This document shows, in pieces, positions 3,030 to 45,230 of a stretch of DNA of 64,000 bases; the stretch's first letter is position 1, and every line of letters starts with the position of its first letter. Where the stretch lies: contig NZ_JARBTM010000011.1 in assembly GCF_029240175.1 (NCBI RefSeq), forward strand, positions 1-64,000. Reading direction: 5' to 3'. The notes beneath the pieces are model-generated. The model searched no databases. It was not told the DNA's origin and worked only from the letters and a program-made list of their open reading frames with translations. The stretch is from Anaerosolibacter sp. (GTDB lineage: Bacteria; Bacillota; Clostridia; Peptostreptococcales; Thermotaleaceae). The translations under genes were made by a program, and so were the position numbers.

Positions 3030-3179
3030 GGAGAAAGGGATAGATAGAGCTGACTATTTATCGCGAAGCTTTCAGGTCTGGTACAATAATTTGACACAAC
3101 CCTGGAGAGACTGCAAAGGCGGCATCAAAGGAGCAACCTAATCAACATGTTAGGGAAACTTTCAGATAAAAGGACAGGG
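3030..3179 (+). promoter_or_regulatory. Glycine riboswitch (one intact aptamer plus degenerate 5' partner)
   Basis: The core (3100-3179) matches the second aptamer of the Bacillus gcvT riboswitch as I remember it: CCTGGAGAG at 3101-3109, then ATCAAAGGAGCAA, then AAACTTTCAG and AAAGGACAGGG. P1 is CCCTG (3100-3104) with CAGGG (3175-3179). Upstream, GGAGAAAG (3030-3037), a hairpin and GAAGCTTTCAGG (3065-3076) look like a collapsed first aptamer, as known for singlet glycine riboswitches with a ghost aptamer. It lies about 155 bases before an amino-acid permease, supporting glycine as an effector for transport. Confidence 0.85.
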
Positions 3180-3227
3180 AGTAGACAGCGTGTTTTTGAC
3201 ATGCATTCTGCTCTCTGTTTTATATTT
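3175..3227 (+). terminator. Riboswitch expression-platform terminator
   Basis: CAGGGAGTAGA (3175-3185) pairs with TCTGCTCTCTG (3207-3217), 11 bp with two G-U pairs. An inner GCGTG/CATGC stem and a downstream TTTTATATTT tract complete it. Bases 3175-3179 are also the 3' strand of riboswitch P1, so glycine binding should block terminator formation: a predicted ON switch. Confidence 0.78.
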
Positions 3228-23869: not shown

Positions 23870-24043
23870 GAAACCCTGGGATGTACGTGATGCCCTGTAA
23901 ATTCAACCTACAGAATTTATTCGGGAGTCTGGGTTCCTTTATTGATGAAATGCCTCCTTTGAGTGGACTTCAGAAGTGAAGGGCAGGACACCCACCTAGT
24001 TGAGGCTAGGGTATGAATTTAGAGGCGTACGGCATTCTGGGAA
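23870..24043 (+). ncRNA. ssrS: 6S RNA
   Basis: About 175 bases without an open frame, with its own promoter and terminator. The ends close into a long interrupted stem: CCCTGG, ATG and TACG near 23874-23887 pair with CGTAC, CAT and CTGGG near 24026-24041. The interior keeps patterns I associate with Firmicute 6S RNA: GTACGTGATGCCC on the 5' side, TTCGGGAGTCTGGGTTCC, GTGGACTTCAGAAGTGAA in the apical arm and GGCGTACGGCAT on the 3' side. 6S RNA mimics an open promoter and sequesters sigma-A RNA polymerase in slow growth. The assignment rests on pattern and fold; a covariance search was not possible here. Confidence 0.82.
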
Positions 24044-24096
24044 AATAATAGACTGATTTAAAACTATGATCTAGTTTTAAATCAGTCTATTATTTT
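24042..24096. terminator. Long bidirectional terminator between 6S RNA and SpoVB gene
   Basis: A perfect 25-bp inverted repeat, 24042-24066 with 24072-24096, loop TGATC. It lies between the 6S 3' end and the stop of the convergent flippase gene and can serve both. Confidence 0.88.
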
Positions 24097-29553: not shown

Positions 29554-30828
29554 ATGGAAAATTCCTTTGATTTTATTCCTGAAGGCGTAATGGATATTCA
29601 TAGTGATGAATATGCTGCCAAAGAAAAGATCATTGATAGAATAAAAAAAAGTTTCAAAGGCTATGGATACCATCAGGTATCAACACCTGCTTTTGAATAT
29701 TATGATACATTTACAGCATTGGGGGGGCTATCAAAAGAAAAAATGTTTAAGCTGATAGATCAAAAAGGGAGAATTCTGGTGTTGAGGCCGGATATGACAA
29801 TTCCTATTGCCCGCATGGCGGCAGGTAAGAGCGGCTATCAGAAATACAGTTATGTATCCAGTATCTTTCGAATGAATGATAAGCAAAACGGAATGAAACG
29901 GGAGTTTATTCAAGCCGGAGTAGAGTTTCTTGGAAATGATAAGGAAGATGCAGATGGAGAGATCATTGCCATAGCAATTGAGATACTCCTCAAAAATGAA
30001 ATAAGTGATTTTCAGATCGATATGGGTCATGTGGGGTTTTGTAAAGCCTTATTAAATGAATGCGAAATAAGCAAAGGGCAACAAACTCAGATTCAGTATC
30101 TAATAGAGCAAAAAAATTTAGCAGAGCTTAAAGACTATATAAAGGCATGCAAAATAAAGAATACAACTGCAAAAGCCATCCTAGAGATTCCTAGCCTTTA
30201 TGGCTCAGCAGATAAAGTGATTGAAAGAGCCAGCAGTCTTATCCAGAATGATGAAATGAAAAAGGCCATTGAGAATTTAGAAAAAGTATACACTATTCTG
30301 AAAGATTACGGATATGACAAGTATATAACCATTGATCTTGGCGTAATCAATCCTATGCATTATTACACGGGTATTGTTTTTAAAGGTTATATCCATGATT
30401 ATGGAAAGACCATATTGAGTGGTGGGAGATATGACCAGTTGATAAAAGCGGATGGAAGGGGATTACCAGCAGTAGGGTTTGGGCTAAATGTTGATAAATT
30501 GATGGAGGTGTTGGAAATGTATAATCTTAATGATAAACCATGTTATACGGATTTTCTAGTACTGTATAAAGAGGAGAATAGAAAGAGTGCATTTCGTATG
30601 GCAAGTGATTTGAGAGATAAGGGATTCATAGTGGAGACCGATGGGTGTAAAGAAAGCTTAAAGGAACAGATTTTCCATGCTGCTGCTAGAAATATCAAAG
30701 AGATTATTGAGATTAAAGGAAACATGTTGAAAGTTATAAGCTTAAAAAACAATCATGTATACGGTGGGGCCATTGATGAATTTATGAAACGAATTGAAAT
30801 GGGCCAACTGTTTGGATCGATTCATTAG
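29554..30828 (+). CDS. hisZ: ATP phosphoribosyltransferase regulatory subunit HisZ
   Basis: 424 residues, a paralogue of histidyl-tRNA synthetase without tRNA charging. It forms a hetero-octamer with short-form HisG and gives histidine feedback control. HisRS-like motifs are visible: RPDMTIPIARM (motif 2 region), FRMNDKQNGMKREFIQAGVEFLG, and GGRYDQL near the end of the catalytic-like core; a HisS-like C-terminal domain (about 335-424) is retained. First gene of the operon with an AGAGGTGG site. The short HisG that follows, which needs HisZ, confirms the assignment. Confidence 0.95.
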   Translation: MENSFDFIPEGVMDIHSDEYAAKEKIIDRIKKSFKGYGYHQVSTPAFEYYDTFTALGGLSKEKMFKLIDQKGRILVLRPDMTIPIARMAAGKSGYQKYSYVSSIFRMNDKQNGMKREFIQAGVEFLGNDKEDADGEIIAIAIEILLKNEISDFQIDMGHVGFCKALLNECEISKGQQTQIQYLIEQKNLAELKDYIKACKIKNTTAKAILEIPSLYGSADKVIERASSLIQNDEMKKAIENLEKVYTILKDYGYDKYITIDLGVINPMHYYTGIVFKGYIHDYGKTILSGGRYDQLIKADGRGLPAVGFGLNVDKLMEVLEMYNLNDKPCYTDFLVLYKEENRKSAFRMASDLRDKGFIVETDGCKESLKEQIFHAAARNIKEIIEIKGNMLKVISLKNNHVYGGAIDEFMKRIEMGQLFGSIH

Positions 30829-30836
30829 GAGGAGAT

Positions 30837-31484
30837 ATGGAAAAATATATCAATCTAGCTGTAGCAAAGGGAAGACTCGCAGATACAGCTGTAAAGGCTT
30901 TAGGCGGAATGGGGATAAGCTTTGATGACTATACATCCAGCAGCAGAAAGCTGATTCATATAGATCATAAAAGTGGAGTAAGATTAGTATTGGTAAAAGC
31001 TGATGATGTTCCTACGTATGTGGAGCAAGGGGCGGCAGACGTTGGAATTGTTGGCAAGGATACATTGATGGAGTCTATGGCCAGTGTGTATGAAATGATG
31101 GACTTAGAATTTGGAAAGTGTAAGTTTGTAGTAGCAGCTTTGAAGGATCGTGTTGAAAATAAGCAAAAAAAATCCTATGTAGCAACAAAATATGTGAATG
31201 TGGCGAAGGAGTTTTTCAAAAGTAAAGGAAAATCTGTAGAAATCATTAAGCTTAATGGTTCTGTAGAGTTAGCGCCACTTGTGGGGTTAGCAGATACGAT
31301 CGTGGATATTGTTGAAACAGGTACGACATTAAAGGAGAATGGCTTGGTTATTGTTGAAGAAATATGTCCTGTGAGTGCGAGACTCATCGTGAATAAAGCA
31401 AGTTTAAAAACAAAAGGGGATATTATTGAAAATATGATCCAACAGCTGTGCCCGAATCAAAAAGAGAGGAAGACTGACCTATGA
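30837..31484 (+). CDS. hisG: ATP phosphoribosyltransferase catalytic subunit HisG (short form)
   Basis: 215 residues. First committed step of histidine synthesis: ATP plus PRPP gives phosphoribosyl-ATP. The PRPP-site segment ELAPLVGLADTIVDIVETGTTLKENGL is intact. The length shows the short form without the C-terminal regulatory domain, hence its dependence on HisZ. It starts eight bases after hisZ with AGGAGG, and its stop overlaps hisD by four bases. Confidence 0.97.
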   Translation: MEKYINLAVAKGRLADTAVKALGGMGISFDDYTSSSRKLIHIDHKSGVRLVLVKADDVPTYVEQGAADVGIVGKDTLMESMASVYEMMDLEFGKCKFVVAALKDRVENKQKKSYVATKYVNVAKEFFKSKGKSVEIIKLNGSVELAPLVGLADTIVDIVETGTTLKENGLVIVEEICPVSARLIVNKASLKTKGDIIENMIQQLCPNQKERKTDL

Positions 31485-32767
31485 AAATCGTTTGTTTGGA
31501 GGATATAAACAGAAATGATTTAAATAACAAATATCTTAATCGTGGCGAGATGGCCTATGAAGAAATTGATGTAATTGTGGATCAAATCTTAAGTGAGGTG
31601 AAGTGTCGAGGAGATGCTGCTTTGCTGGACTATGCATTAAAGTTTGACGGTGCAATGCTTAAGGATATAGCGATATCGGTAGAGGAAATTGAAGAAGCAC
31701 TTTTAGCGGTTGAGCCAGAATTTATTTCAATTTTAAAGGAAGCCAAGGATAATATTTGGGATTATCATGAGAAACAAAAACAAAACTCATGGTTTAGTAA
31801 TCAAGGTGAAAATATTATTCTTGGTCAAAAGGTTACACCCTTGGAGAGAATTGGCATATATGTACCTGGAGGTAAAGCAGCTTATCCATCAACGGTGCTG
31901 ATGAATGCAATTCCTGCTTTGGTTGCTGGTGTTGATTCTATAGCCATGGTATCACCTCCAGACAAAGAGGGGAAAATCAATCCATATGTTTTGGCAGCAG
32001 CCCGTATATGCGGTATCACTGAAATCTATAAAGTAGGAGGCGCACAAGCTATAGGTGCTCTAGCCTTTGGAACGGTAACAATAGCTTCTGTAGACAAAAT
32101 AGTGGGTCCTGGAAATACTTATGTGGCAAGGGCTAAAAAGAAAGTATATGGATCTGTAGATATTGACATGATTGCAGGCCCCAGTGAAATATGTATATTA
32201 GCCGATGATGAATCAGAACCAGTTTATATAGCTGCTGATTTGCTTTCGCAAGCTGAGCACGATGAAGAAGCAGGTGTGATATTAGTAACTACGTCACAAG
32301 TCTTGGCTGAGGAAGTAGTAAAGGAAGTGAAAAGACAGTCAGCCTTATTAAATAGAAAAGAAATTATTTATAAATCACTGGAGAACCATGGTTACATCTT
32401 TGTCGTGCCAAACCTTGAGACCGGATTTCATGTTGTGAATAGTATTGCTCCTGAACATCTGGAATTGATGGTTGCTTCTCCATTCGATGCATTGCCCAAA
32501 GTTAGAAATGCTGGTGCGATTTTCTTAGGAGCATATTCCCCAGAACCACTGGGTGATTACTTCGCTGGCCCTAATCATACTTTACCTACGGGTGGTACAG
32601 CAAAGTTCTCTTCTCCTCTTGGTGTCGATGATTTCATAAAAAAATCCAGCATTATTTATTATAACAGAAAAGCATTGGAAAAAGTTAGGGATCAGGTTAT
32701 CTATTTTGCAGAGAAAGAAGGATTAACCGCCCATGCCAATGCCGTCAGAGTGAGGGAAAAAGGATGA
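31481..32767 (+). CDS. hisD: Histidinol dehydrogenase HisD
   Basis: 428 residues, zinc- and NAD-dependent; oxidises L-histidinol through the aldehyde to L-histidine (last step). Signature segments are VGPGNTYVARAK, MIAGPSEICILAD, LLSQAEHDEEAGV and ENHGYIFV...APEHLEL, including the zinc and general-base residues. Overlaps hisG and hisC by four bases each, indicating translational coupling. Confidence 0.97.
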   Translation: MKIVCLEDINRNDLNNKYLNRGEMAYEEIDVIVDQILSEVKCRGDAALLDYALKFDGAMLKDIAISVEEIEEALLAVEPEFISILKEAKDNIWDYHEKQKQNSWFSNQGENIILGQKVTPLERIGIYVPGGKAAYPSTVLMNAIPALVAGVDSIAMVSPPDKEGKINPYVLAAARICGITEIYKVGGAQAIGALAFGTVTIASVDKIVGPGNTYVARAKKKVYGSVDIDMIAGPSEICILADDESEPVYIAADLLSQAEHDEEAGVILVTTSQVLAEEVVKEVKRQSALLNRKEIIYKSLENHGYIFVVPNLETGFHVVNSIAPEHLELMVASPFDALPKVRNAGAIFLGAYSPEPLGDYFAGPNHTLPTGGTAKFSSPLGVDDFIKKSSIIYYNRKALEKVRDQVIYFAEKEGLTAHANAVRVREKG

Positions 32768-33819
32768 AAAATTTGATTAAAGATTCAGTTCGAGTCATCT
32801 CACCCTATAGTCCGAGTAAAAACAACTATAACGTAAGGTTGGATGCCAATGAAAACCCGTTTAATTTAGTATCAGAACTCCAGGAGGAAATCGCTGAGAT
32901 CATTCGTGATATGAAGATGAATAGATATCCCGATACCGATTGTGTTCGCCTAAAGGTGGGTTTGTCCAAGTATGTAGGAATGAAGCAAGAGAATATTATT
33001 TGCGGCAATGGATCAGATGAAATCATTCAAGTCATTATTCAAACCTTTGTGGATAAAGGAGATGCAGTGGTTACACATATACCTACTTTCTCCATGTACA
33101 GTATTTTTACAAAAATTGCTGGGGGAAGGATCATTGAAATTCCTTCTAAAGAAGATTTCAAAATAGATGTGGAAAAGCTTATTGAAGCGTCTATTCAAAA
33201 CAAGGCGAAGCTGATATTTCTGTGTAATCCTAATAACCCTACAGGTGCTACCATACCATACTGCGACATTATAGAAGTACTTAAAAGAACTGATGCCATG
33301 GTTGTCGTTGATGAAGCATATTATGAATTTTTCGGAGAAACCATTGCAAGTCATGTAAATGAATGGGATCGACTTATTGTTTTAAGAACCTTATCAAAGG
33401 CTTTTGGGCTGGCAGATATACGACTTGGGTATGGTATAGCAGGAGTGAGCACTATTGAGATTTTAAATCGCGTATTGCCACCATATAACTTGAGTAGTTT
33501 TTCTCAAGCTATGGGTAGCCTGGCACTTCGTCATGCTGACAAAGTACTAAGTTATATAAAAACGATCAAAGCAGAAAGAGAATATGTACTGGATAAACTG
33601 CAGGAAATTAAGAAAATAAACATTTACCCTTCAGCTGGAAACTTTGTGCTGGTAACGTCTGAAAAGCTAAGTGAAATCGCAGATTTCTGCGATAAAGAAG
33701 GCATTGGCATACGTGTATTTAGAAATGACCCAATGTTGAAAAATGCCATGAGAATCACCATAGGATCGAGATTAGAGAACGAACGAATGATTGAGACAAT
33801 AAGAAAAGTGGTGGGTTGA
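32764..33819 (+). CDS. hisC: Histidinol-phosphate aminotransferase HisC
   Basis: 351 residues, class I/II PLP aminotransferase making histidinol phosphate from imidazole-acetol phosphate. Motifs: RLDANENPF, CGNGSDEIIQ, CNPNNPTGA, VVDEAYYEF and the PLP lysine in RTLSKAFGLADIRLGYG. Four-base overlap with hisD. Confidence 0.96.
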   Translation: MKNLIKDSVRVISPYSPSKNNYNVRLDANENPFNLVSELQEEIAEIIRDMKMNRYPDTDCVRLKVGLSKYVGMKQENIICGNGSDEIIQVIIQTFVDKGDAVVTHIPTFSMYSIFTKIAGGRIIEIPSKEDFKIDVEKLIEASIQNKAKLIFLCNPNNPTGATIPYCDIIEVLKRTDAMVVVDEAYYEFFGETIASHVNEWDRLIVLRTLSKAFGLADIRLGYGIAGVSTIEILNRVLPPYNLSSFSQAMGSLALRHADKVLSYIKTIKAEREYVLDKLQEIKKINIYPSAGNFVLVTSEKLSEIADFCDKEGIGIRVFRNDPMLKNAMRITIGSRLENERMIETIRKVVG

Positions 33820-33820
33820 T

Positions 33821-34405
33821 ATGAGAATGTCGAGCATTGAGAGAAAAACATCGGAGACAGATATAAAAATGACACTACAGATCTATGGAAAAGGAAGGCG
33901 CAGCATATCTACAGGAATAGGTTTCTTTGATCATATGTTGGATACAATGTGCAAGCATGGATTTATGGATATTGACCTATTATGTACAGGGGATCTACAT
34001 GTGGATGATCATCATACAGTGGAAGATGTAGGCATTGTTCTAGGAGATGCTTTTCGAAAAGCATTGGGTGATAAACAAAAAATCAGGAGATATGCAACGG
34101 TCTATACGCCAATGGACGAGTCCCTTTCTCGTATCTCTATAGACATAAGTGGAAGAGCCTATTTGCATTATGATGTATCGTTCTTACAGCAAAGTGCGGG
34201 GCAGTTTGATGTTGCTCTTGTAGAGGAATTTTTCAGGGCTTTTGTAAATCATGCACAAGTAACCCTCCATATCACCATGGAGTATGGGAAAAACAGTCAT
34301 CACATGATTGAGTCGATTTTCAAAGGCTTTGGAAGGGTATTAGATCAGGCAAGTGTAGTTGATCATAGGATTATTGGCGTACTGTCAACGAAAGGGCAGT
34401 TATAG
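33821..34405 (+). CDS. hisB: Imidazoleglycerol-phosphate dehydratase HisB
   Basis: 194 residues, monofunctional dehydratase without the N-terminal phosphatase of enterobacterial HisB. Manganese-binding motifs GFFDHMLD, DDHHTVEDV, and NSHHMIESIFKG are all present. Starts one base after the hisC stop; a second ATG two codons in (33827) is an alternative start. Confidence 0.97.
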   Translation: MRMSSIERKTSETDIKMTLQIYGKGRRSISTGIGFFDHMLDTMCKHGFMDIDLLCTGDLHVDDHHTVEDVGIVLGDAFRKALGDKQKIRRYATVYTPMDESLSRISIDISGRAYLHYDVSFLQQSAGQFDVALVEEFFRAFVNHAQVTLHITMEYGKNSHHMIESIFKGFGRVLDQASVVDHRIIGVLSTKGQL

Positions 34406-34438
34406 TTGGAATTTTGGAACTTCAAGGAGGGGTGCAAG

Positions 34439-35044
34439 ATGATTGCCATCGTAGATTATGGTGTTGGGAATTTAAAAAGTGTAAATAAAGCCTTTCAATA
34501 TCTAGGCTTTCAATCGCTTATTACATCCGACCCAAAAGAGATTGATAAAAGTGATGCTATAGTATTACCAGGCGTAGGTGCATTTAAAGATGCCATGGAA
34601 CAGTTAAAGAAAAACGATTTAGCACAGTGCATAAAAGAGAATGTAGGAAAAAAGAAGCTAATATTAGGTATATGCTTGGGCATGCAGCTCCTTTATGAGA
34701 AAAGCTATGAGGACGGTGAATGGGAGGGGTTAGGGCTCCTAAAAGGTGAGATCGTAAAATTTAACTCCCAGTTGAAGATACCCCATATGGGTTGGAATAA
34801 GCTATCAAAGCGTTTTGATGATGATCTCGGAAGAGGAATTGAAGATGGGGAATATGTGTATTTTGTCCACTCGTACTATCTGGACACCCATGCGAAGGAT
34901 GACATTCTATTTAATACCCAATATGATGTAGATGTTCCTGCAGTTGTAAGAAATGGAAATATTATAGGTATGCAGTTTCACCCAGAGAAAAGCGGTGGCA
35001 CAGGGCTAAAATTATTAAGGAACTTCGGGGAGTTGATAAAATGA
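34439..35044 (+). CDS. hisH: Imidazole glycerol phosphate synthase glutaminase subunit HisH
   Basis: 201 residues. Class I glutamine amidotransferase supplying ammonia to HisF. Nucleophile Cys in LGICLGMQLL and the His/Glu pair in MQFHPEKS are present. The ATG at 34439 is chosen since AAGGAGG lies eight bases upstream; the frame is open back to 34406 but without a ribosome site. Overlaps hisA by four bases. Confidence 0.96.
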   Translation: MIAIVDYGVGNLKSVNKAFQYLGFQSLITSDPKEIDKSDAIVLPGVGAFKDAMEQLKKNDLAQCIKENVGKKKLILGICLGMQLLYEKSYEDGEWEGLGLLKGEIVKFNSQLKIPHMGWNKLSKRFDDDLGRGIEDGEYVYFVHSYYLDTHAKDDILFNTQYDVDVPAVVRNGNIIGMQFHPEKSGGTGLKLLRNFGELIK

Positions 35045-35754
35045 TTATTTTTCCAGCAATAGATATTCTAGGTGGAAAGTGTGTAAGATTGGAGCAAGGA
35101 AGATTCGATAAGGAAGTGATCTATTTTGATGATCCCGTAGAAATTGCAGGACTGTGGGCTTCTAAAGGCGCAACCCATCTTCATGTTGTTGACCTTGACG
35201 GGGCAAGGGATGGTTTTGGCAAAAATAAAGATACGATTAGAAAAATAATTCAAGCGTCAGATATACCTGTCCAGGTTGGAGGCGGATTTCGAACCCTTGG
35301 CGTTATAGATGAAATGCTTGAGCTCGGTGCAGCAAAAGTTATTATAGGTACCTCAGCGGTTATGATTACTGACTTCGTTGACCAGGTTGTTAAGGAATTT
35401 GGAGACAATATCATCGTTTCGCTGGATGCGAGAAACGGTAATATTGCAGTAGAGGGTTGGACGAAGATACTTAATCAACCGGCCTTGGCATTTGCACAAG
35501 AGCTTGAAGATAAGGGAATACAATCTGTAGTTTATACGGATATTGCAAAAGACGGGATGCTTCAAGGCCCAAATTTTAAAGAATTAAAACAACTCAAAGA
35601 AATGACGCAGCTAAATGTAATCGCATCGGGAGGAATTACTACGGTGCAACATATTAAAGAATTAGAATCCTCTGGGATGTACGGTGCAATTATTGGCAAG
35701 GCTTTATATGCTGGTGCGATTACACTAGAGGAGATTCAGGAGGTGATTCTATGA
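35041..35754 (+). CDS. hisA: ProFAR isomerase HisA
   Basis: 237 residues, (beta/alpha)8 barrel performing the Amadori rearrangement of ProFAR to PRFAR. Catalytic Asp residues in the N-terminal AIDILGGKCVRLEQG and the later YTDIAKDGMLQGPN; phosphate sites in VGGGFR and ASGGI. Overlaps hisH and hisF by four bases. Confidence 0.97.
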   Translation: MIIFPAIDILGGKCVRLEQGRFDKEVIYFDDPVEIAGLWASKGATHLHVVDLDGARDGFGKNKDTIRKIIQASDIPVQVGGGFRTLGVIDEMLELGAAKVIIGTSAVMITDFVDQVVKEFGDNIIVSLDARNGNIAVEGWTKILNQPALAFAQELEDKGIQSVVYTDIAKDGMLQGPNFKELKQLKEMTQLNVIASGGITTVQHIKELESSGMYGAIIGKALYAGAITLEEIQEVIL

Positions 35755-36512
35755 TCGCCAAAAGAATCATTCCTTGTTTAGATGTGGATGCAGGTAGAGT
35801 TGTAAAGGGCAAGAAGTTTCAAGACCTTTCAGATGTTAATGATCCAGTCACTTTAGCTAAATATTATAATGATGAGGGTGCGGATGAATTAGTGTTCTAT
35901 GATATCACAGCAACCAGTGAAAAAAGAGATATTTTTCTTCAGATCGTAGAGCAGACAGCTGAGTCAGTGTATATACCGTTGACAATAGGTGGTGGTATTC
36001 GAACAGTAGAAGATTTTAAGCGGGTATTAAGAGCAGGCGCCGATAAGGTTTCAGTAAACTCGGCTGCTGTAATAGATCCTCAACTCATTACCGCAGCGGC
36101 ATTAAAATTTGGAAGACAATGTGTAGTGCTTTCCATGGACGTAAAAAGGAACGAGGATAAAGGTTGTACTATATATACCCATGGTGGAAGGATAAACACG
36201 GGAATAGATGCATTGGAGTGGGCTGTAAAAGGTGAATCTTTAGGAGCCGGTGAAATCGTGGTCAATTGTATTGATACCGATGGCATTCGAAATGGATATG
36301 ATCTTGAAATTACCAGAAAGATTTCTGAGGAAGTACGTGTACCTGTTATTGCTTCAGGTGGGGCAGGTAAAAGTGAAGATTTCTATCAAGTGCTACAGCA
36401 TGGTAAAGCGGATGCAGCATTAGCAGCATCGGTATTCCATTATGGGGATATTCGCATAAGGGAACTGAAGAGTTACCTTGACAATAAAGGTATTCATGTA
36501 AGGAGATGTTGA
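35751..36512 (+). CDS. hisF: Imidazole glycerol phosphate synthase cyclase subunit HisF
   Basis: 253 residues, barrel partner of HisH; makes imidazole glycerol phosphate and AICAR. Catalytic Asp in [15 protein letters not shown] and Asp in [13 protein letters not shown]; phosphate sites TIGGGI and ASGGAG. GGAGGTG before the ATG. Confidence 0.97.
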
Positions 36513-36513
36513 T

Positions 36514-37140
36514 ATGAGCGAATTTCTTTCAGAATTAAAATATGATGAAAATGGCCTTATTCCAGCTATTGTTCAAGATGCTGCAAGCAAAGAGGTATTA
36601 ATGCTTGCTTATATGAATCAAGAAGCTTTATACAAGACCTTCGAAACAAAAAAAACATGGTTTTATAGTAGAAGTAGAAAATGTCTATGGAACAAAGGCG
36701 AGACATCAGGAAACTATCAAGCGGTAAAAAAAATTTCATATGATTGTGATAAGGATACGCTGCTCGTTGAAGTAAAACCGTTTGGAAATGCATGTCACAC
36801 AGGTGAGAAAAGCTGCTTTTACTCCGTCCTATTTAAAGATTCAGCTGAAGAGGAAGATTCACAAATCATATCATCATTGGTTGAAAGGTTAAAAAGCAGA
36901 AAAAGAAATCCTCAACAGGGTTCCTATACAAGTTATTTATTTGAAAAAGGACTAAATAAAATACTAAAAAAAATTGCTGAAGAAGCGGGAGAAGTAATTA
37001 TCAGCGCAAAAAATGAAAGCAAATCGGAGATGATATTGGAGCTGAGTGACTTACTTTATCATTCTTTAGTGTTGATGGTTGAAAAAGAAATTGATGTGAC
37101 TGATATTAAAAATGAAATGATAAAAAGGTATAAAAAGTAA
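36514..37140 (+). CDS. hisI: Bifunctional phosphoribosyl-AMP cyclohydrolase / phosphoribosyl-ATP pyrophosphatase HisIE
   Basis: 208 residues: HisI domain (about 1-112) with the zinc segment CDxD-type [13 protein letters not shown] and [11 protein letters not shown], and HisE domain (about 118-208) with [12 protein letters not shown]. Catalyses steps 3 and 2 of the pathway. Last his gene; no histidinol-phosphatase (HisN or HisJ type) follows. One-base gap from hisF, AAGGAG ribosome site. Confidence 0.97.
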
Positions 37141-37207
37141 AAATATATAAAAATTCGACGGTATCAAAAAATTCATTGGACTCATCCTATAGATAGGAGG
37201 TGTTTAT

Positions 37208-37399
37208 ATGATTACAAAGGATACAATGATCAAAGATATATTAGCAGATCATCCTGAAGCAGAGTCAGTTTTTAATCAATATGGGATTCGATGTTTTGGA
37301 TGAGGCGGTGTGTTATATAAAAGCGTAGGTTACGCTGCACAACGATATGGAATCGAAGAAGATAAATTGCTTAATGAATTAAATAAGCATAAGCATTAG
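37208..37399 (+). CDS. DUF1858-type redox protein with in-frame UGA: candidate selenoprotein
   Basis: Reading UGA at 37301-37303 as selenocysteine gives one continuous 63-residue protein from ATG 37208 (AGGAGGTG upstream) to TAG 37397-37399. The N-terminal ITKDTMIKDILADHPEAESV and C-terminal GYAAQRYGIEEDKLLNELN match the DUF1858/hybrid-cluster-associated disulfide family on both sides of the UGA. The family CxxC at GMHCxGC becomes C29-F-G-U32 here. A perfect 6-bp stem with a GGU loop follows, with 24 bases between UGA and loop, as bacterial SECIS elements require. Without Sec insertion it would be a 31-residue fragment. Lies 67 bases after hisIE. Confidence 0.85.
37322..37336 (+). other. SECIS-like hairpin
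   Basis: AGCGTA (37322-37327), loop GGT, TACGCT (37331-37336). Perfect stem, small loop beginning with two Gs, placed 24 bases after the UGA; these are the known constraints on bacterial SECIS elements. Confidence 0.75.
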
Positions 37400-37453
37400 T
37401 TAGCAGAGTTTGATTGGACATTGAATCACATGTAATAATTTGGATGATATTTA

Positions 37454-37486
37454 AAGAAGACAATTTTGAGAATTGTCTTCTTTTTA
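37454..37486 (+). terminator. Intrinsic terminator after the his operon/selenoprotein gene
   Basis: GAAGACAATT (37456-37465) pairs with AATTGTCTTC (37471-37480) followed by TTTTT. Confidence 0.9.
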
Positions 37487-37531
37487 TGTATAATGAAATA
37501 GAATAAACTTTAACTGAAAGAGGTTGAAAAC

Positions 37532-39220
37532 ATGGTTATTGAATTAATGAATAGTTTGATGAATAGGGGTGCAATGATAATTATACTTGCTTTCCTATTG
37601 TCAAAGAGTAATTTGTTTAAAAGATTGGTACTGAAAAAGGATGTAACGCTCATTGAAAAAATAGCCATGGGCATTTTATTTGGAATCTTTGGCATCATTG
37701 GCACCTATTCTGGAATACCTGTAAATGGAGCTATCGCCAACTCGCGGGTGATTGGTGTTTTCGTGGGTGGTTGGCTTGGGGGCCCCGTGGTTGGAATTCT
37801 AAGCGGCATCATAGCAAGCGGACATCGATGGGCAATCGATATCGGAGGATTTACTGCTGTAGCCTGTGCAATCTCTACAATCGTAGAAGGCGCCATTGGA
37901 GGATATGGCAGTCGAATGTTTAAAGACTTGAAGACTAGTTGGGTTGGAGCGCTGATAATGGGAGCGGCAGCAGAAATTATACAGATGATCATCATTCTAG
38001 TGGTGGCCAAGCCATTTCCGGATGCCCTGAATCTAGTGGAACTAATCTGGTTCCCTATGGTATTTGTGAATGCTGTAGGAATTTCAATATTTATAGCGAT
38101 GACACAAAATATCTTTATTGAACATGAACGAATAGGTGCAGCCCAGGCGCACCTAGCATTAAAGATTGCCAATGAGACATTGCCTGTTTTACGGAAGGGT
38201 TTTCATAAGGACTCCATTAAAAGAACAGCAGAGATTATCTATGAGATGACGAACGTTGCAGCTGTGGCCATTACAGATACAGATCATATACTAGCCCATA
38301 TTGGGGAAGGCAGTGATCATCATCTAACTGGGAGTCCAATCTTGACCCAAATCACCAAAGATGTTATCGATTCTGGAGCGTATCGTGTAGCTAGAACACC
38401 TGAAGAAATAGATTGTAACGGAAAAGAGTGTAAATTGTTATCGGCGGTTATTGTACCACTTTTTGATAGAGATAGAGTAGCGGGCACACTGAAACTATAC
38501 AAAGCTGATAAATTAGGTATCACAAGTACGGATATCCAATTGGCCCTAGGATTGGCTCAGTTGTTTTCTACCCAAATAGAGATTAGTAAGCTAGAGTATC
38601 AGAATAAATTATTGGCTAAAGCTGAATTGAAAGCGTTACAAGCACAAATTAATCCCCACTTTTTATTTAATGCATTAAATACCATCGCATCTTTTATTCG
38701 AACGAAACCAGAAGAAGCCAGGGCGTTGATCATTCATTTAAGTGACTACTTTAGACAAAGTCTGCAGTTTACCAGTGGAGACATCGACTTGATGCGTGAG
38801 ATTAAAAACATTGAATCTTATTTGGCTTTAGAACGAGCTCGGTTTGGAGAAAAATTAAAGATAATTTATGAAATACCAGAGAATATTACCTGTGTGATTC
38901 CATCATTAATTCTTCAGCCCGTAGTTGAGAATGCAGTAAAACATGGCATTTTTAATAAAGTGGAAGGTGGTACAGTAATCATACGAGCTTCTGACAATAA
39001 AGATTATGTAGAGTTAGTTGTTGAGGATGACGGAATTGGGATGGATCACAGCAAACTACAGTGCCTTTTCAGTGAAGAGGGAAATACGAATCATATTGGA
39101 TTAATGAATGTAAACAAAAGACTAAAAACGAAATATGGAGCTGAATATGGCTTGAATATCGGTAGTCAAGTAGGTATAGGAACAAAAGTTACGATGAAAA
39201 TCCCAAAGGAAAAACAATAG
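37532..39220 (+). CDS. LytS-type sensor histidine kinase
   Basis: 562 residues. Residues about 10-195 are six or so membrane segments of the 5TM-5TMR_LYT type, with NGAIANSRVIGVFVGGWLGGPVVG. A GAF domain (about 215-350) and a His_kinase/HATPase unit follow, with phospho-acceptor His376 in NPHFLFNALN and nucleotide motifs NAVKHG and DDGIGM. E. coli homologues BtsS and PyrS sense pyruvate. The response regulator gene follows by 13 bases and a CstA-type transporter comes next, the same trio as btsS-btsR-btsT. Pyruvate sensing is inferred from that arrangement. Confidence 0.92.
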   Translation: MVIELMNSLMNRGAMIIILAFLLSKSNLFKRLVLKKDVTLIEKIAMGILFGIFGIIGTYSGIPVNGAIANSRVIGVFVGGWLGGPVVGILSGIIASGHRWAIDIGGFTAVACAISTIVEGAIGGYGSRMFKDLKTSWVGALIMGAAAEIIQMIIILVVAKPFPDALNLVELIWFPMVFVNAVGISIFIAMTQNIFIEHERIGAAQAHLALKIANETLPVLRKGFHKDSIKRTAEIIYEMTNVAAVAITDTDHILAHIGEGSDHHLTGSPILTQITKDVIDSGAYRVARTPEEIDCNGKECKLLSAVIVPLFDRDRVAGTLKLYKADKLGITSTDIQLALGLAQLFSTQIEISKLEYQNKLLAKAELKALQAQINPHFLFNALNTIASFIRTKPEEARALIIHLSDYFRQSLQFTSGDIDLMREIKNIESYLALERARFGEKLKIIYEIPENITCVIPSLILQPVVENAVKHGIFNKVEGGTVIIRASDNKDYVELVVEDDGIGMDHSKLQCLFSEEGNTNHIGLMNVNKRLKTKYGAEYGLNIGSQVGIGTKVTMKIPKEKQ

Positions 39221-39233
39221 TGGAGGTGTAGTG

Positions 39234-39992
39234 ATGCGTTGCATTATAGTTGATGATGAAGCACCGGCTCGGGAAGAAATAAAATATTTGCTTCAAAAAT
39301 ATAGTGATATTGAAATTGTTGGTGAGGCAGATGACGGGAAACAGGCTTGCGAGCTTATAATGAAGGCTAAGCCTGATGTACTATTTCTCGACATTCAAAT
39401 GAGAGGTATGAGTGGATTTGATGTGGCCAACGAACTCTACAAGCGAGAAATATATCCCCTGATTGTATTTATTACTGCATATGATCAGTATGCAATCAAA
39501 GCATTTGAAATCAATGCCATTGATTATCTGCTAAAACCAATTTCGGATGAGAGACTGTCCAGTACGATTGAACGTATTCAAAATACTCAAAAAAGGAATC
39601 AAAATGCCAATAAAATTGATATTGAAGATATTTTAAAATATATAAACAAACCTAAGCTTGTCCAGAAAATTTCTGTTTATTGCAATGGGAAACATATCCC
39701 TTTAGATCCAGCCGAAATCACGTTGATAGGCGTTGAGGGGCGTAATACGGTGATTAAATCCAGGAAAGGAGAGTATGTTTCCAATCTTAGCCTAAGCGAG
39801 CTAGAAGAAAAACTAAGGGATTTTCCTTTTTTTCGAAGCCACCGTAGTTTTCTGGTAAATCTTGAAGAAATTCAAGAGATTGATCAATGGTTTCACGGTA
39901 CTTATCAAATAACGATGAAAGGATTCCCAAAGGATAAAATTCCGGTAAGCCGAAGTAATGCCCATAAATTTAGAGAAATAATGAACCTATAG
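39234..39992 (+). CDS. LytTR-family response regulator
   Basis: 252 residues from ATG 39234 (GGAGGTG upstream; the GTG at 39231 is less likely). Receiver domain (about 1-120) with DDEAPARE and phospho-acceptor Asp55 in FLDIQM; LytTR DNA-binding domain (about 145-252) with FFRSHRSFLVNLEEI. LytTR proteins bind pairs of direct repeats; a candidate pair lies before the CstA-type gene. Partner of the preceding kinase. Confidence 0.94.
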   Translation: MRCIIVDDEAPAREEIKYLLQKYSDIEIVGEADDGKQACELIMKAKPDVLFLDIQMRGMSGFDVANELYKREIYPLIVFITAYDQYAIKAFEINAIDYLLKPISDERLSSTIERIQNTQKRNQNANKIDIEDILKYINKPKLVQKISVYCNGKHIPLDPAEITLIGVEGRNTVIKSRKGEYVSNLSLSELEEKLRDFPFFRSHRSFLVNLEEIQEIDQWFHGTYQITMKGFPKDKIPVSRSNAHKFREIMNL

Positions 39993-39994
39993 AT

Positions 39995-40022
39995 GAGGGA
40001 GTCAAGCTGGCTTCCTTTTTTA
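39995..40022 (+). terminator. Terminator between LytTR regulator and transporter gene
   Basis: AGGGAG and CTTCCT flank the short GC-containing loop, with one G-U pair and a single bulge, followed by T6. Confidence 0.6.
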
Positions 40023-40048
40023 TTGGGAAAATGTTATGAGCACCGCCA

Positions 40049-40121
40049 TTCGACAATTCAAACATAAAATCCGACATCCTAGACAGATCATATATTCATT
40101 GGTTAAATTAATCGGTATAAT
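40049..40121 (+). promoter_or_regulatory. Candidate LytTR-activated promoter of the CstA-type gene
   Basis: Direct repeats ATTCGACAATTC (40049-40060) and ATCCGACATCC (40069-40079) have their CGACA cores 21 bases apart, two helical turns. A -10 TATAAT lies at 40116-40121 with no good -35, as expected for an activator-dependent promoter. The repeats sit about 50-80 bases before the predicted start. Confidence 0.45.
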
Positions 40122-40170
40122 TCATTTGAAGGATTACTTTCATAACATTACACAAGAAGGAGGATAAAAA

Positions 40171-41595
40171 ATGATCAGTTTTATTGTAGCAATTATTGTT
40201 CTTATTTTAGGGTATTTTACCTATGGAAAATTTGTTGAGCGCGTTTTTGGTGTAGAAGAAGATAGACCTACGCCTGCTTTAGCCATGGAAGATGGCGTTG
40301 ATTATGTACCCATGAGTTGGAAACAAATATTTCTCATCCAATTTTTGAATATCGCAGGATTGGGACCGATTTTTGGTGCCATAATGGGTGCACTATACGG
40401 TCCTGCGGCATTTTTATGGATTGTATTTGGCAGTATATTTGCAGGTGCAGTACATGATTATTTTTCAGGAATGCTCTCACTCAGACATAATGGGGAAAGT
40501 ATTTCAGAAATTGTGGGATATTATCTAGGGGATTCTGCAAAGAAAATTATGAGAGTGTTCTCAGTTGTATTACTGATCCTTGTTGGAACTGTATTTATGA
40601 CAGGACCAGCTGGATTGTTGAGCAGTCTTAAATTATTTGGTATAGAAAATGTAAAAGTATGGCTGGCGCTCATCATCGTTTACTACTTTTTAGCAACGAT
40701 TATGCCAGTGGATAAAATCATTGGGAAAATATATCCCTTATTCGGAGCAGCATTGTTAATTATGGCAGTGGGAATAGGGAGCATGATGATCATTAAGGGT
40801 TATCAAATTCCTGAAATCACTTTAGAAAGTATGCATCCAAAAGGACTTCCTCTTTGGCCAATGCTTTTTGTCACTATAGCCTGTGGTGCAATTAGTGGAT
40901 TTCATGCCACTCAATCTCCTATGATGGCTCGATGTATGACCAATGAGAAATATGGACGTCAAGTGTTTTATGGTGCCATGATTGCTGAAGGAATCATTGC
41001 CCTCATTTGGGCTGCTGCTGCCATGACTTTCTTTAATGGAATCCCTGGATTAAATGAAGCATTAGGAAATGGCGGTACGGGAGCAGTAGTCAATACGATT
41101 TCTAAATCACTTTTAGGACCAATTGGTGGACTTTTGGCGGTGCTAGGGGTAATTGCATGCCCAATTACTTCGGGTGATACAGCTTTCAGAAGTGCCAGAT
41201 TGGTTATCGCCGATGCAATTGGGTTTGAACAAGGGAAGATAAGCAAGAGATTATTGTTGGCATTACCTCTATTTGCAGTAGGTTTTGGATTAACGCTGAT
41301 CGATTTTAACATTATTTGGAGATATTTTGCATGGTCAAATCAGACCTTGGCGATGATTGTATTATGGGCTGCAGCAGTTTATCTAGCGATTAAATCAAAG
41401 ATACACTGGATTGCTTCTATTCCGGCTACCTTTATGACAGGCGTAAGCATAACTTATATCTTGATGGCTCCAGAAGGTTTTAAACTCTCTGCGGCAATTG
41501 CTTACCCAGTAGGGGGCGGAGCAGCACTATTCGCGTTGATATTCTTTATGGTAAAAGTCAGAAATAGAGTTAATACAATTGAACAGGAAGCATAA
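40171..41595 (+). CDS. CstA/BtsT-family transporter, probable pyruvate or peptide permease
   Basis: 474 residues, about 13 membrane segments; the shorter Gram-positive form of the carbon-starvation protein A family (E. coli CstA and BtsT are about 700). Conserved segments are QFLNIAGLGPIFGAIMGALYGP, AGAVHDYFSGMLSLRHNG, GFHATQSPMMARC and ITSGDTAFRSARL. E. coli members import pyruvate; older work proposed peptides. The adjacent LytS/LytTR pair favours a pyruvate-regulated carboxylate importer. AGGAGG before the ATG. Confidence 0.92.
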   Translation: MISFIVAIIVLILGYFTYGKFVERVFGVEEDRPTPALAMEDGVDYVPMSWKQIFLIQFLNIAGLGPIFGAIMGALYGPAAFLWIVFGSIFAGAVHDYFSGMLSLRHNGESISEIVGYYLGDSAKKIMRVFSVVLLILVGTVFMTGPAGLLSSLKLFGIENVKVWLALIIVYYFLATIMPVDKIIGKIYPLFGAALLIMAVGIGSMMIIKGYQIPEITLESMHPKGLPLWPMLFVTIACGAISGFHATQSPMMARCMTNEKYGRQVFYGAMIAEGIIALIWAAAAMTFFNGIPGLNEALGNGGTGAVVNTISKSLLGPIGGLLAVLGVIACPITSGDTAFRSARLVIADAIGFEQGKISKRLLLALPLFAVGFGLTLIDFNIIWRYFAWSNQTLAMIVLWAAAVYLAIKSKIHWIASIPATFMTGVSITYILMAPEGFKLSAAIAYPVGGGAALFALIFFMVKVRNRVNTIEQEA

Positions 41596-41600
41596 ATATA

Positions 41601-41625
41601 AAAGGGAATCCACGGATTCCCTTTT
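41601..41625 (+). terminator. Intrinsic terminator after CstA-type gene
   Basis: AAAGGGAATC and GATTCCCTTTT form a compact hairpin (loop CACG) followed by T-rich sequence. Confidence 0.82.
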
Positions 41626-41704
41626 ATATTTATGTGTAAAGTATAGCAGTAAAGATAGATTTCGTGTAAAATGAATAGAAAGAAGTTAAGAGCTGGAGGG
41701 ATAT

Positions 41705-43900
41705 ATGTTTAATACAAAAAGCTTGAGGTTTAAGATACCTGCTTTGATTATTATCTTGGTAATGATTACGATAGCTGGGGCGAGTTATATGTCTTACGAG
41801 ATATTCACCCAAGATATCCGCCACCAGATTATTCAAAAGAACGCTGTCATTACGGAAATGATTTCGGACCAAATTAGTCAATATCTCATTGCAGCCCAAG
41901 ACACGGTAGAGTATGTTGCAAAATATGCTTCCTATAATGATATGCCATCCATAAAAAGAAGCATAGATCGGATTTATGGCAGCTATAAGTGGATGGATCT
42001 GATGTTTTATATGACGACAGATGGTAAGATAACATATAGTAACCCACATAATGATATAATTTATCAAAGAGATTACGTGGAAAGAGAATATTTTCAGCAT
42101 ATTACGAAGTATAAAGAAACGTACATAAGTAAAGTTTTTATTAGCAGTATTCTAAACCAACCTCATATTATTATCGTATCACCAATTATTGATCCCCAGA
42201 CTGGTGAAATGAAGGGGATTATAGGTGGGGGAGTTCCCCTTAATAGCCTGCAGAAGATCGTTGAAAAGACGCAGCAATCCTTCGATGGAAGAATATATGT
42301 GGTAGATATGGATGGTACAACCCTTGTTAGTCCCAATGAGAGTGATATCACCAACCGAGTAGTACTCAATAGACGTGTGAAGATAAGCGGTGAAGAACAA
42401 GAACTTTCGGACATCATGGAAAGATATACAGAAGGGATCGGGGAGTATAAAAGTGATCTAGATAGGGTGTATGTATCCTTTAGCAAGATTCCTAACTATA
42501 AGGGTCTGGTTATTGTTGAACAAAATGAGCAGTATATACTAGGGCAATTAGGCGAAATCAAATCTAGATTTTTTTCGGGTATTGTATTTGTCATGATCTC
42601 TGTTTTGATTTTAAGTATGTATTTTGCCCATACCATAACGAGTCCAATTGAAAACCTCGTTAATTTTGTAAGACGACTCAGTAGTGATATCGACAGTGGA
42701 ACAAAAGAGGTGGAGATCACTGCTTCAGACGAATTAGGTGAATTAGAAAGAGCGTTTCACCATATGGGCAGAGAATTAAGCTTAAAGATGGAAGCTTTAA
42801 AAAACCTTCATAAAAGAGAATACGATATTAAAAAATACCTTAATAATATTTTAAAAAGCGCAGCCAGCGGAATTATTGTCATTGATTACTATAATAAAAT
42901 ATCAATATTTAATACTGCTGCAGAAGAGATTACGGGGTATAGAAGTCAATACTTTATAAATAAGCCATTGGAGTTTTTAGCTAGTCATATTGGACTTCCA
43001 TTAGAAATCTTTAAAAACTATATAAATGGCGAAGAAAATACTGTAACTGAACGAGAATGTTTGATCAAAAAGAATGATGGGGTAATGATACCATTAAGTA
43101 TATCTTTATCTCCCGTTTACGATGATGAAGGACAAGTGATCAGTACTGTATGTTTGATCAAGGACTTGACAAAGATAAAAGTCTTAGAAGAGCATCTGAG
43201 GCGTGAGGATCGTCTAAAAACCATTGGGGAAATGTCATCATCCATCATACATGAGATTGGAAATCCACTGGCAGGAATGTCAAATCTCTTGGAAGTTCTT
43301 AGGGATCATGTTGAGGATATAAATCTACGAGATGAGTTATTAACTGCTTTGAGTGAGGAAGTGAATATGCTGAATAATCTGGTGATCAACTTCTTAGATT
43401 TTACAAGAACCCATAAAAGTTTGCCAATCACCACAAATATTCTGGGTGTCATTAACAGTGCCTTAAATATATTGAATTCAGAAATCATGAATAAAAACGT
43501 AAATATTGTCAAGAAATATTCTTCATCGGTGCCTTTGGTAAAGATTGACCCTGCCACAGTGCGGCAAGCATTTGTAAATCTTCTGAAAAATAGTGTTCAA
43601 GCGGTAGATGAAAATGGAAAGATCACAATCGAAGTAAAAACTGTGGAGGAAGACTATAGAAGGATACTGTGTATTTCTATTCTAGATAATGGTGAGGGCA
43701 TATCTGAAGATAAAATTGAACAAATTTTTAATCCATTCTATACAACGAAACAAGATGGTACCGGGTTAGGGTTGGCGATTGTGCATAAGATTATAAGGGA
43801 TAATAATGGTACAATTTCTGTAAAAAGCGAAGTTGGGGCTAGTACAGAGTTTATCATCTGCTTTGAGGGGGAAATAATTGATGAAGCTACTAATTATTGA
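41705..43900 (+). CDS. Membrane sensor histidine kinase (dCACHE-HAMP-PAS-HisKA), NtrB/AtoS type
   Basis: 731 residues. TM1 (about 10-30), a double-CACHE extracytoplasmic domain (about 35-280), TM2 (about 290-310), HAMP (about 312-365), PAS (about 380-490), then HisKA with H516 in SSIIHEIGNPL and an HATPase with NLLKNSVQAV, DNGEGI, GTGLGLAIVHK. CACHE sensors bind small ligands such as carboxylates and amino acids. Its end overlaps the NtrC-type regulator gene by 20 bases, so the two form a coupled pair. The ligand is probably an organic acid used by the downstream genes; that is inference. Confidence 0.93.
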   Translation: MFNTKSLRFKIPALIIILVMITIAGASYMSYEIFTQDIRHQIIQKNAVITEMISDQISQYLIAAQDTVEYVAKYASYNDMPSIKRSIDRIYGSYKWMDLMFYMTTDGKITYSNPHNDIIYQRDYVEREYFQHITKYKETYISKVFISSILNQPHIIIVSPIIDPQTGEMKGIIGGGVPLNSLQKIVEKTQQSFDGRIYVVDMDGTTLVSPNESDITNRVVLNRRVKISGEEQELSDIMERYTEGIGEYKSDLDRVYVSFSKIPNYKGLVIVEQNEQYILGQLGEIKSRFFSGIVFVMISVLILSMYFAHTITSPIENLVNFVRRLSSDIDSGTKEVEITASDELGELERAFHHMGRELSLKMEALKNLHKREYDIKKYLNNILKSAASGIIVIDYYNKISIFNTAAEEITGYRSQYFINKPLEFLASHIGLPLEIFKNYINGEENTVTERECLIKKNDGVMIPLSISLSPVYDDEGQVISTVCLIKDLTKIKVLEEHLRREDRLKTIGEMSSSIIHEIGNPLAGMSNLLEVLRDHVEDINLRDELLTALSEEVNMLNNLVINFLDFTRTHKSLPITTNILGVINSALNILNSEIMNKNVNIVKKYSSSVPLVKIDPATVRQAFVNLLKNSVQAVDENGKITIEVKTVEEDYRRILCISILDNGEGISEDKIEQIFNPFYTTKQDGTGLGLAIVHKIIRDNNGTISVKSEVGASTEFIICFEGEIIDEATNY

Positions 43901-45230
43901 CGATGAAAAAAGTATTCGATTGTCTTTACAAGTAGGATTAGCAAAAACGGGCGTGAAGATATATACAGCTGCATCAGGGGAAGAAGGATTAGAACTTTTT
44001 CGTAATATAAATCCTGATATAGCCGTGATCGATATCAAATTGCCAGGAATTGATGGCATTGAAGTTTTAAGGAGAATCCGTAAGGAGAATGATAACTGTA
44101 TTGTAATCATGATTACCTATATAAGTGAAGTAAGGCTGGCAGTAGAAGCTATGAAGCTCGGTGCCAATGATTACTTTACCAAACCATTTAACATTGAAGA
44201 AATTAAAGATACCATTGAAAATAACCTTAAATATTTAAAGCTGAAGCGTGAATTAAGCCAAGATCAATACGAAGATTTTACAGAAATTGTCGGAATAAGT
44301 GATCAAATCAAAGAGATAAAAAAAGTCGTTCAAAAAGTGAGCAATCTTCCTTATAATACCTATATCCTTGTACAAGGGGAGAGCGGCACTGGGAAAGAAA
44401 TCGTGGCAAAAGCTATCCACTATAACGGTATAAGAAAGAATACGCCCTATGTGGCTTTAAACTGTGCTGCCATACCCCAAAATTTGCAGGAGAGTGAATT
44501 GTTCGGCTATGAGAAAGGTGCCTTTACAGAGGCTAAGACGTCGAAAAAGGGTCTGATTGAAGAGTCCCATGGAGGAACCTTGTTTCTTGATGAAATTGGA
44601 GACATGGATATATTACTACAAGCAAAATTACTAAGGGTTTTACAGGAGAAAAAGTTTAGACGATTAGGTGGTGTAAAAGAAATTGATTTTGATGCCAATA
44701 TTATTGCAGCCACCAATAAGAACCTTCTCGAAGAAGTAAAGAATGGAGCATTTAGAGAAGATTTATATTATCGATTGAATGTGGTACCAATTTTTACGAC
44801 ACCTTTAAGAGAAAGAGTGGAGGATATTCCTCCCCTCATTGATTCGTTTATCCGATTGTACAACAGTCAGCTCAATAAAAACATTATAGGTATGACCGAT
44901 GCTGCTATGGAAATATGCAAAGCCCATCAGTGGAAGGGAAATGTGCGTGAATTGAAAAATGTGATAGAAAGGATCATCATATTTCAGGAGAATGAATGCA
45001 TTGATATTGATGATTTGCCCCACAGTGTGATCAGCGATATCCATATGATCAATGATAAAAATATCATCGACATGGGAAATAATAATCTAAATTTAGAGAT
45101 AGTAGAAATGGAAACGATAAGTCGAGTTTTGAAACAAAACAACTGGAATATTTCAAGAACTGCCCAAGAATTAGGAATATCTCGATTAACTTTAAGACGT
45201 AAAATTGAAAAATACAGCATTATGAAATGA
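43881..45230 (+). CDS. Sigma-54-dependent response regulator, NtrC/AtoC type, GAFTEA variant
   Basis: 449 residues from ATG 43881 (GGGGG upstream). Receiver (1-120, Asp51), AAA+ domain (about 140-375) with Walker A GESGTGKE and Walker B GGTLFLDEIGD, and a Fis-type helix-turn-helix at the C-terminus (NISRTAQELGISRLTLRRKI). The sigma-54 contact loop reads G213-A-F-T-E217-A instead of GAFTGA; codon 217 is GAG at 44529-44531. It should use ATP hydrolysis to open sigma-54 promoters; a strong match lies about 250 bases downstream. Confidence 0.93.
   Translation: MKLLIIDDEKSIRLSLQVGLAKTGVKIYTAASGEEGLELFRNINPDIAVIDIKLPGIDGIEVLRRIRKENDNCIVIMITYISEVRLAVEAMKLGANDYFTKPFNIEEIKDTIENNLKYLKLKRELSQDQYEDFTEIVGISDQIKEIKKVVQKVSNLPYNTYILVQGESGTGKEIVAKAIHYNGIRKNTPYVALNCAAIPQNLQESELFGYEKGAFTEAKTSKKGLIEESHGGTLFLDEIGDMDILLQAKLLRVLQEKKFRRLGGVKEIDFDANIIAATNKNLLEEVKNGAFREDLYYRLNVVPIFTTPLRERVEDIPPLIDSFIRLYNSQLNKNIIGMTDAAMEICKAHQWKGNVRELKNVIERIIIFQENECIDIDDLPHSVISDIHMINDKNIIDMGNNNLNLEIVEMETISRVLKQNNWNISRTAQELGISRLTLRRKIEKYSIMK

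Follow-up and report, generated by a model that had tools for sequence, protein, structure and literature searches.

A DUF1858-type gene with an in-frame UGA behind hisIE in Anaerosolibacter: a predicted CxxU selenoprotein

The UGA codon at 37301–37303 of the window (the whole 64,000-nucleotide stretch analysed here, positions C24:1-64000 of a 3.87 Mb genome in 50 contigs) is very probably decoded as selenocysteine (Sec), and the 63-codon gene that contains it appears to be a functional selenoprotein gene rather than a decayed one. The frame, the protein family, the conservation of the UGA, a covarying hairpin and the Sec machinery can all be read from the DNA, and from these we infer Sec insertion itself. 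The product would be a small DUF1858-type protein with a C-F-G-U redox pair, to which we give not quite an even chance of being a selenol/thiol carrier for a flavoprotein reductase.

Gene, family and fold

The gene and the elements around it are as follows.

36514–37140, plus strand: hisIE, the upstream neighbour, ending 67 nt before the ATG (open reading frame; HisIE match in the subclade)
37195–37200, plus strand: ribosome-binding site AGGAGG, 7 nt before the ATG (sequence, relatives)
37208–37399, plus strand: predicted selenoprotein gene for a 63-aa DUF1858/TIGR03980 protein, CFGU motif at residues 29–32 (frame, profiles, relatives)
37301–37303, plus strand: UGA codon 32, putatively read as selenocysteine (UGA/Cys alternation in homologues)
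37322–37336, plus strand: bSECIS-type hairpin AGCGUA-GGU-UACGCU within the coding region (covariation, synonymous-codon test, energies)
37453–37483, plus strand: intrinsic terminator-like hairpin with T tail, 3' of the gene (terminator-like site scan)

The frame opens at ATG 37208, is interrupted solely by the UGA and closes with TAG at 37397–37399, exactly where the earlier note had placed a 63-residue frame broken only by UGA. With TGA written as U, it translates to MITKDTMIKDILADHPEAESVFNQYGIRCFGUGGVLYKSVGYAAQRYGIEEDKLLNELNKHKH. The ribosome site seen in that note is the AGGAGG listed above; AGGAGG or AGGAGGG precedes the ATG in each of the four nearest relatives. A perfect palindrome, TCCTAT-AG-ATAGGA (37185–37198), overlaps this site. 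It is conserved in Anaerosolibacter carboniphilus and was not found perfect in genomes G007, G011 and G015, so no regulator site is claimed for it. Between 36900 and 37700, two terminator-like sites were found against a shuffle mean of 0.2; one is the hairpin at 37453–37483, which would close a hisIE/selenoprotein transcript, and the other is the minus-strand reading of the SECIS hairpin. The gene is presumably co-transcribed with hisIE, probably as the tail of the his operon.

Eighteen frames with a single internal TGA (≥60 aa, with ≥20 aa on either side of the TGA) occur in the window. Four of them do not overlap a long ORF, the selenoprotein gene being one of these four and the only one that the Pfam/NCBIfam scan covered. 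Rfam gave no match at the gene when the whole window was searched at the gathering threshold, and a relaxed search of 37100–37500 returned chance-level matches only, all below the gathering score. Rfam gathering matches elsewhere in the window are a glycine riboswitch aptamer (3092–3187) and a 6S RNA (23870–24047); ARAGORN found no tRNA genes in the window.

For profile searches, the TGA position was submitted as Cys. The protein scores 39.8 bits with Pfam DUF1858 (PF08984; gathering cut-off 32.2), residues 2–55 aligning to positions 1–59 of the 59-position profile, and 56.5 bits with NCBIfam TIGR03980, prismane_assoc (curated cut-off 44.95). Both matches span the UGA position, which bears out the earlier assignment of both flanks to a DUF1858-type protein. 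An AlphaFold2 model built from 27 UGA sequences, in which U was replaced by C, has four helices at a pLDDT of 93.1 and places CFGU (29–32) in the loop that joins helices two and three. The top Foldseek matches of the model are 2k53 and 2k5e, both DUF1858-type, with TM scores of 0.77 and 0.82 by query length and E values of 0.0054 and 0.0080, no match reaching ≤0.001; phmmer likewise puts these two entries on top. The Cys form of TIGR03980, the hybrid cluster protein-associated redox disulfide domain, has the same length and the same CxxC position. In the window protein, Sec takes the place of the second Cys, the motif reads GIRCFGUGG where the Cys form has LHCLGCP, and a hairpin lies within the frame. 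Two Cys paralogues of the gene are present in its own genome (contigs C34 and C25).

These affinities bear on function. The protein may be a selenoprotein and yet not a carrier, serving hybrid cluster protein, for instance, as a metal- or selenium-binding or regulatory partner, or acting in iron-sulfur or nitrosative repair as does the N-terminal domain of ScdA/YtfE. TIGR03980 is named after hybrid cluster protein, and YtfE chains come next in Foldseek (TM 0.72–0.75 by query length). The ScdA_N profile (PF04405, DUF542), which describes the N-terminal domain of ScdA and YtfE, is a related fold with a weak sequence match, 32.1 bits against a gathering cut-off of 32.5; compared with it, the window protein is a single domain, without the di-iron domain behind. 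However, no hybrid-cluster-protein gene was recognised by eye among the window ORFs at 30000–45000, and two UGA clades adjoin flavoprotein reductases instead. We consider such a non-carrier role an appreciable possibility, clearly short of an even chance.

Reading of the UGA codon

The genome encodes selA, selB, selC and selD, all on C24, the contig of the window. The profile matches are SelD at C24:147182 (386.6 bits, cut-off 125), SelA at C24:148291 (631.5 bits, cut-off 267.9), SelB at C24:149778 (387.2 bits, cut-off 242.25) and a single tRNA-Sec above gathering at C24:155867 (74.1 bits versus 47). SelD has an in-frame UGA of its own in an SSSGUAAKMGPG motif (C24 near 147170; L017:4171-4173). 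SelB exceeded the cut-off in 37/37 genomes with the UGA form versus 22/37 comparison genomes, a Fisher p of 1e-5 that is indicative only, because the genomes are related and the 37 comparison genomes were chosen by hand, not at random, among those whose listed matches lack the UGA form. Both sets were drawn from the searches of 98 related genomes and of 391 genomes of the class described below.

The family is present in 77 of the 98 related genomes searched. We read 81 homologues, a subset of all matches found; the codon-32 position is UGA in 57 (20 + 21 + 16) and Cys in 24 (21 + 3), never Trp, which places the UGA on the second Cys of the CxxC, as the earlier note had proposed. The best match outside the genome itself, in A. 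carboniphilus, has 83% identity, equal length and UGA at codon 32; the two genes differ by 4 nonsynonymous and 17 synonymous changes before the UGA and by 7 and 12 after it, with no indel. This locus alone was returned by a separate single search of genome contigs with the window protein. In the class (391 genomes searched), the 24 listed matches with the best scores (60.3–110.2 bits, 23 genomes) each carry one TGA, and the listed ones at ≤58.5 bits carry none. In the phylum (398 genomes searched), the two forms are intermixed, with UGA at 16 and Cys at 3 of the 19 loci read; the Sec DUF1858 family is thus widespread in the phylum. For genome G612, the matches listed are one with TGA (70.0 bits) and two whose frame has no internal stop (71.8 and 70.6 bits); the locus read, L089, is of the Cys type and no longer has the hairpin.

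A tree of the homologues requires seven UGA/Cys changes, three of them forced by well-supported branches. It places the window gene in a clade of five rows (support 99/96) and was used for that clade only, since 60 columns stand for 81 rows. UGA forms (L043, L045, L051–L054) also occur within the LHCLGC group, which corresponds to the hybrid-cluster-associated type. Two Cys genes close to them, L032 and L034, still hold the hairpin and are perhaps recent Sec-to-Cys changes.

In a single genome, a pseudogene would look alike: if a nonsense mutation or a sequencing error had hit codon 32 of a one-time CxxC gene, a lone TGA in an intact frame would likewise result, and Cys homologues do exist (the 24 mentioned above). 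The same UGA recurs, however, in 57 homologues from many families, purifying selection acts on both sides of it without indels, and the hairpin covaries. Decay is refuted for the family by UGA conservation and by the constraint on the downstream half, and it is highly improbable for the window gene. The earlier view that the gene is not decayed agrees with this, the relatives keeping both the UGA and an intact downstream half; neither a genome without Sec machinery nor eroded or frame-shifted relatives, the two findings held in that note to speak against a selenoprotein, was encountered.

It is equally improbable that the UGA is a true stop, with a 31-residue peptide ending in RCFG as product and the remainder a separate or regulatory element. 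UGA does serve as a normal stop in this genome, ending 10 of the 48 non-overlapping ORFs of ≥150 aa in the window, but the downstream half is conserved in amino-acid sequence, reading frame and length, and without it the DUF1858 profile would be incomplete, on which grounds this reading was rejected. Decoding as another residue by reassignment or leaky readthrough, compatible with the sequence of the window gene alone, is the least probable reading and was rejected given the ordinary UGA stops, the alternation with Cys and not Trp in the homologues read, and the full Sec machinery.

Returning to Sec insertion, the SECIS-like hairpin of the earlier note was recovered as described there, with a 6-bp stem and a GGU loop; its sequence is AGCGTA-GGT-TACGCT, and the loop begins 24 nt after the UGA. 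The bSECIS model of bSECISearch, as PMC13188914 gives it, has an apical loop of 3–9 nt, an upper stem of 4–16 bp, a G in the first two loop positions, 16–37 nt between UGA and apical loop, and a minimum free energy of −7.5 kcal/mol or lower. The stem, the 3-nt loop, its G and the spacing of the window hairpin all lie within these bounds. Its energy is −6.1 kcal/mol alone and −8.3 kcal/mol with a 4-bp outer stem, so that it reaches the model's value only with the outer stem. The 60 nt after the UGA fold to −13.0 kcal/mol without the hairpin when unconstrained and to −11.9 kcal/mol with the hairpin forced; the competing fold involves the bases immediately 3' of the UGA, and by our reasoning a ribosome stalled on this codon would cover them.

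When codons were redrawn synonymously with the protein kept, the window hairpin gave p = 0.011 (10,000 draws; 0.012 in another run). By itself it is just moderately surprising, so the case is carried by the homologues. The hairpin was better than its own synonymous shuffles (p<0.05) in 43/57 UGA genes versus 3/24 Cys genes (Fisher 2e-7, indicative only because the homologues are related); with the codon usage of the window these were 32/41 UGA and 3/21 Cys genes, and with that of each locus 11/16 and 0/3. Fourteen of the 57 UGA genes failed the test, and C_G039 (L054) lacks a good hairpin; the Cys genes L032, L034 and L047 passed it, so that the hairpin alone is not diagnostic. On codon choice alone, this parallel comparison of UGA and Cys genes shows selection on the hairpin to be confined to genes with UGA.

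Covariation points the same way. In the first 20 UGA genes, the 6-bp stem is paired in 95.8% of cells, and 15 cells changed on both sides versus 5.9 in shuffles (0/500); two of five covariation measures were not above shuffles (double-change pairs, 432/500; further pair types, 464/500). The stem AGCGUA/UACGCU becomes AGCAUA/UAUGCU, AGCAUC/GAUGCU or AGCAUU/AAUGCU, changes that are explained partly by the protein (Val to Ile, Tyr to Asn/Asp), the partner bases being matched by synonymous choice. Another 21 UGA genes have a GGC-loop hairpin 5 nt further downstream (89.8% of cells paired) with 12 double changes versus 4.9 in shuffles (0/500); its double-change pairs (32/500) and pair types (16/500) are borderline. 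Both structures were derived from the sequences tested, which gives them an advantage over slid controls. The spacing between UGA and loop in other UGA clades is 29 nt.

We propose that the mRNA is translated from ATG 37208 and that, at the UGA, the hairpin just 3' of it would bring in SelB with Sec-tRNA, so that Sec is inserted. Translation would then continue to the TAG ending at 37399, yielding a single DUF1858 domain.

Gene neighbourhoods and a possible carrier role

In the window gene's subclade, a HisIE match lies upstream at 5/5 loci and a LytS-like gene downstream at 4/5. The window gene itself follows hisIE and has no reductase gene beside it. Such genes appear in its UGA sister clade, whose nine rows include a second copy from the same genome (C47:54992-55168, L049). 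Here a CoA-disulfide-reductase-like gene is next at 8/9 loci and a CsoR-family gene at the ninth (G067); longer flanks, available for the copies of G000 and G001, show the reductase, then TusA, then genes of DsrE2-like and CsoR-family type. Behind L049 likewise come a CoA-disulfide-reductase/rhodanese fusion, TusA, DsrE2-like and CsoR-family genes. The reductase has a rhodanese domain and is called CoA-disulfide-reductase-like, uncertified, because its score of 456 bits falls short of the TIGR03385 cut-off (579). A C run followed by a G run precedes the gene at 9/9 sister-clade loci, and 4/9 satisfy a stricter inverted-repeat criterion; upstream of L049 this is a CCCCC..GGGGG palindrome. We take the C run and G run to be the pattern of CsoR-type operators. 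The Cys-His-Cys pattern of the sister-clade repressor looks like the copper-sensing type, so that the signal may be sulfur or a metal.

The gene of a further UGA clade, f31, is flanked by a thioredoxin-reductase-like gene (181.7 bits with TIGR01292, cut-off 343) on one side and a SCIFF maturase gene (685.9 bits with TIGR03974, cut-off 425) on the other at 14/15 loci (L062, L065, L067–L072 and L074–L079; the exception is L073). Six f33 loci and six group C loci gave no match to the neighbour queries. The 19 phylum loci L088–L106 share no neighbour among the genes queried; 18 had no match, and L088 had CsoR.

Judging from the sister-clade neighbours, the window protein may be a small selenol/thiol carrier that connects a pyridine-nucleotide flavoprotein reductase with a substrate, either a sulfur compound or a disulfide. 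Oxidation of the CFGU pair, which sits in the loop following the second helix, can give a selenenylsulfide that is open to reduction once more; this makes a carrier the most likely role, at nearly an even chance, and the pair would cycle between selenenylsulfide and selenol/thiol with the flavoprotein as reductant. More broadly, Sec DUF1858 proteins could be exchangeable selenol carriers that are dedicated to flavoprotein reductases of disulfides or persulfides, specialised by clade. The sister clade would be controlled by a CsoR-type repressor through the C-run/G-run operator and would handle reactive sulfur with the CoA-disulfide-reductase/rhodanese fusion, TusA and DsrE2; the f31 carrier would work with the thioredoxin-reductase-like protein, beside the maturase of a thioether peptide (SCIFF); and in the hisIE-linked clade, to which the window gene belongs, the module would have specialised a third time. 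Taken jointly with all three specialisations, this wider reading is rather unlikely.

Relation to known selenoproteins

The window gene is very probably a genuine selenoprotein gene, of a kind already known from reviews and hardly studied. The suggestion in the earlier note that it may be new did not hold: the tables of two reviews (PMC9312934, PMC13188914) already contain a DUF1858 domain-containing CxxU selenoprotein, WP_012065717.1. Compared by table row only, this protein has the same Pfam family and motif, with Sec at the second position of the CxxC. The rows give no function for it, and the passages of the two reviews that we consulted give neither context nor SECIS. Both reviews credit the DUF1858 entry to papers of 2008 and 2016 (PMC2398784, PMC5029168); in main-text passages of these, 'DUF1858' is absent from the 2016 paper and 'DUF' from the 2008 paper. 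One of the two reviews (PMC9312934 or PMC13188914) separately tabulates Sec forms of CoA-disulfide reductase and DsrE. In the part of the DUF1858 and selenoprotein literature covered, we found no gene neighbourhoods of Sec DUF1858 genes; such context may be in print.

With this gene, a predicted selenoprotein family that is blank as to function gains a well-supported member, and the in-frame UGA explains why gene callers cut such genes in half. The linked reductase genes turn the entry 'DUF, Sec form' into a testable question, namely whether these proteins may be selenol carriers.
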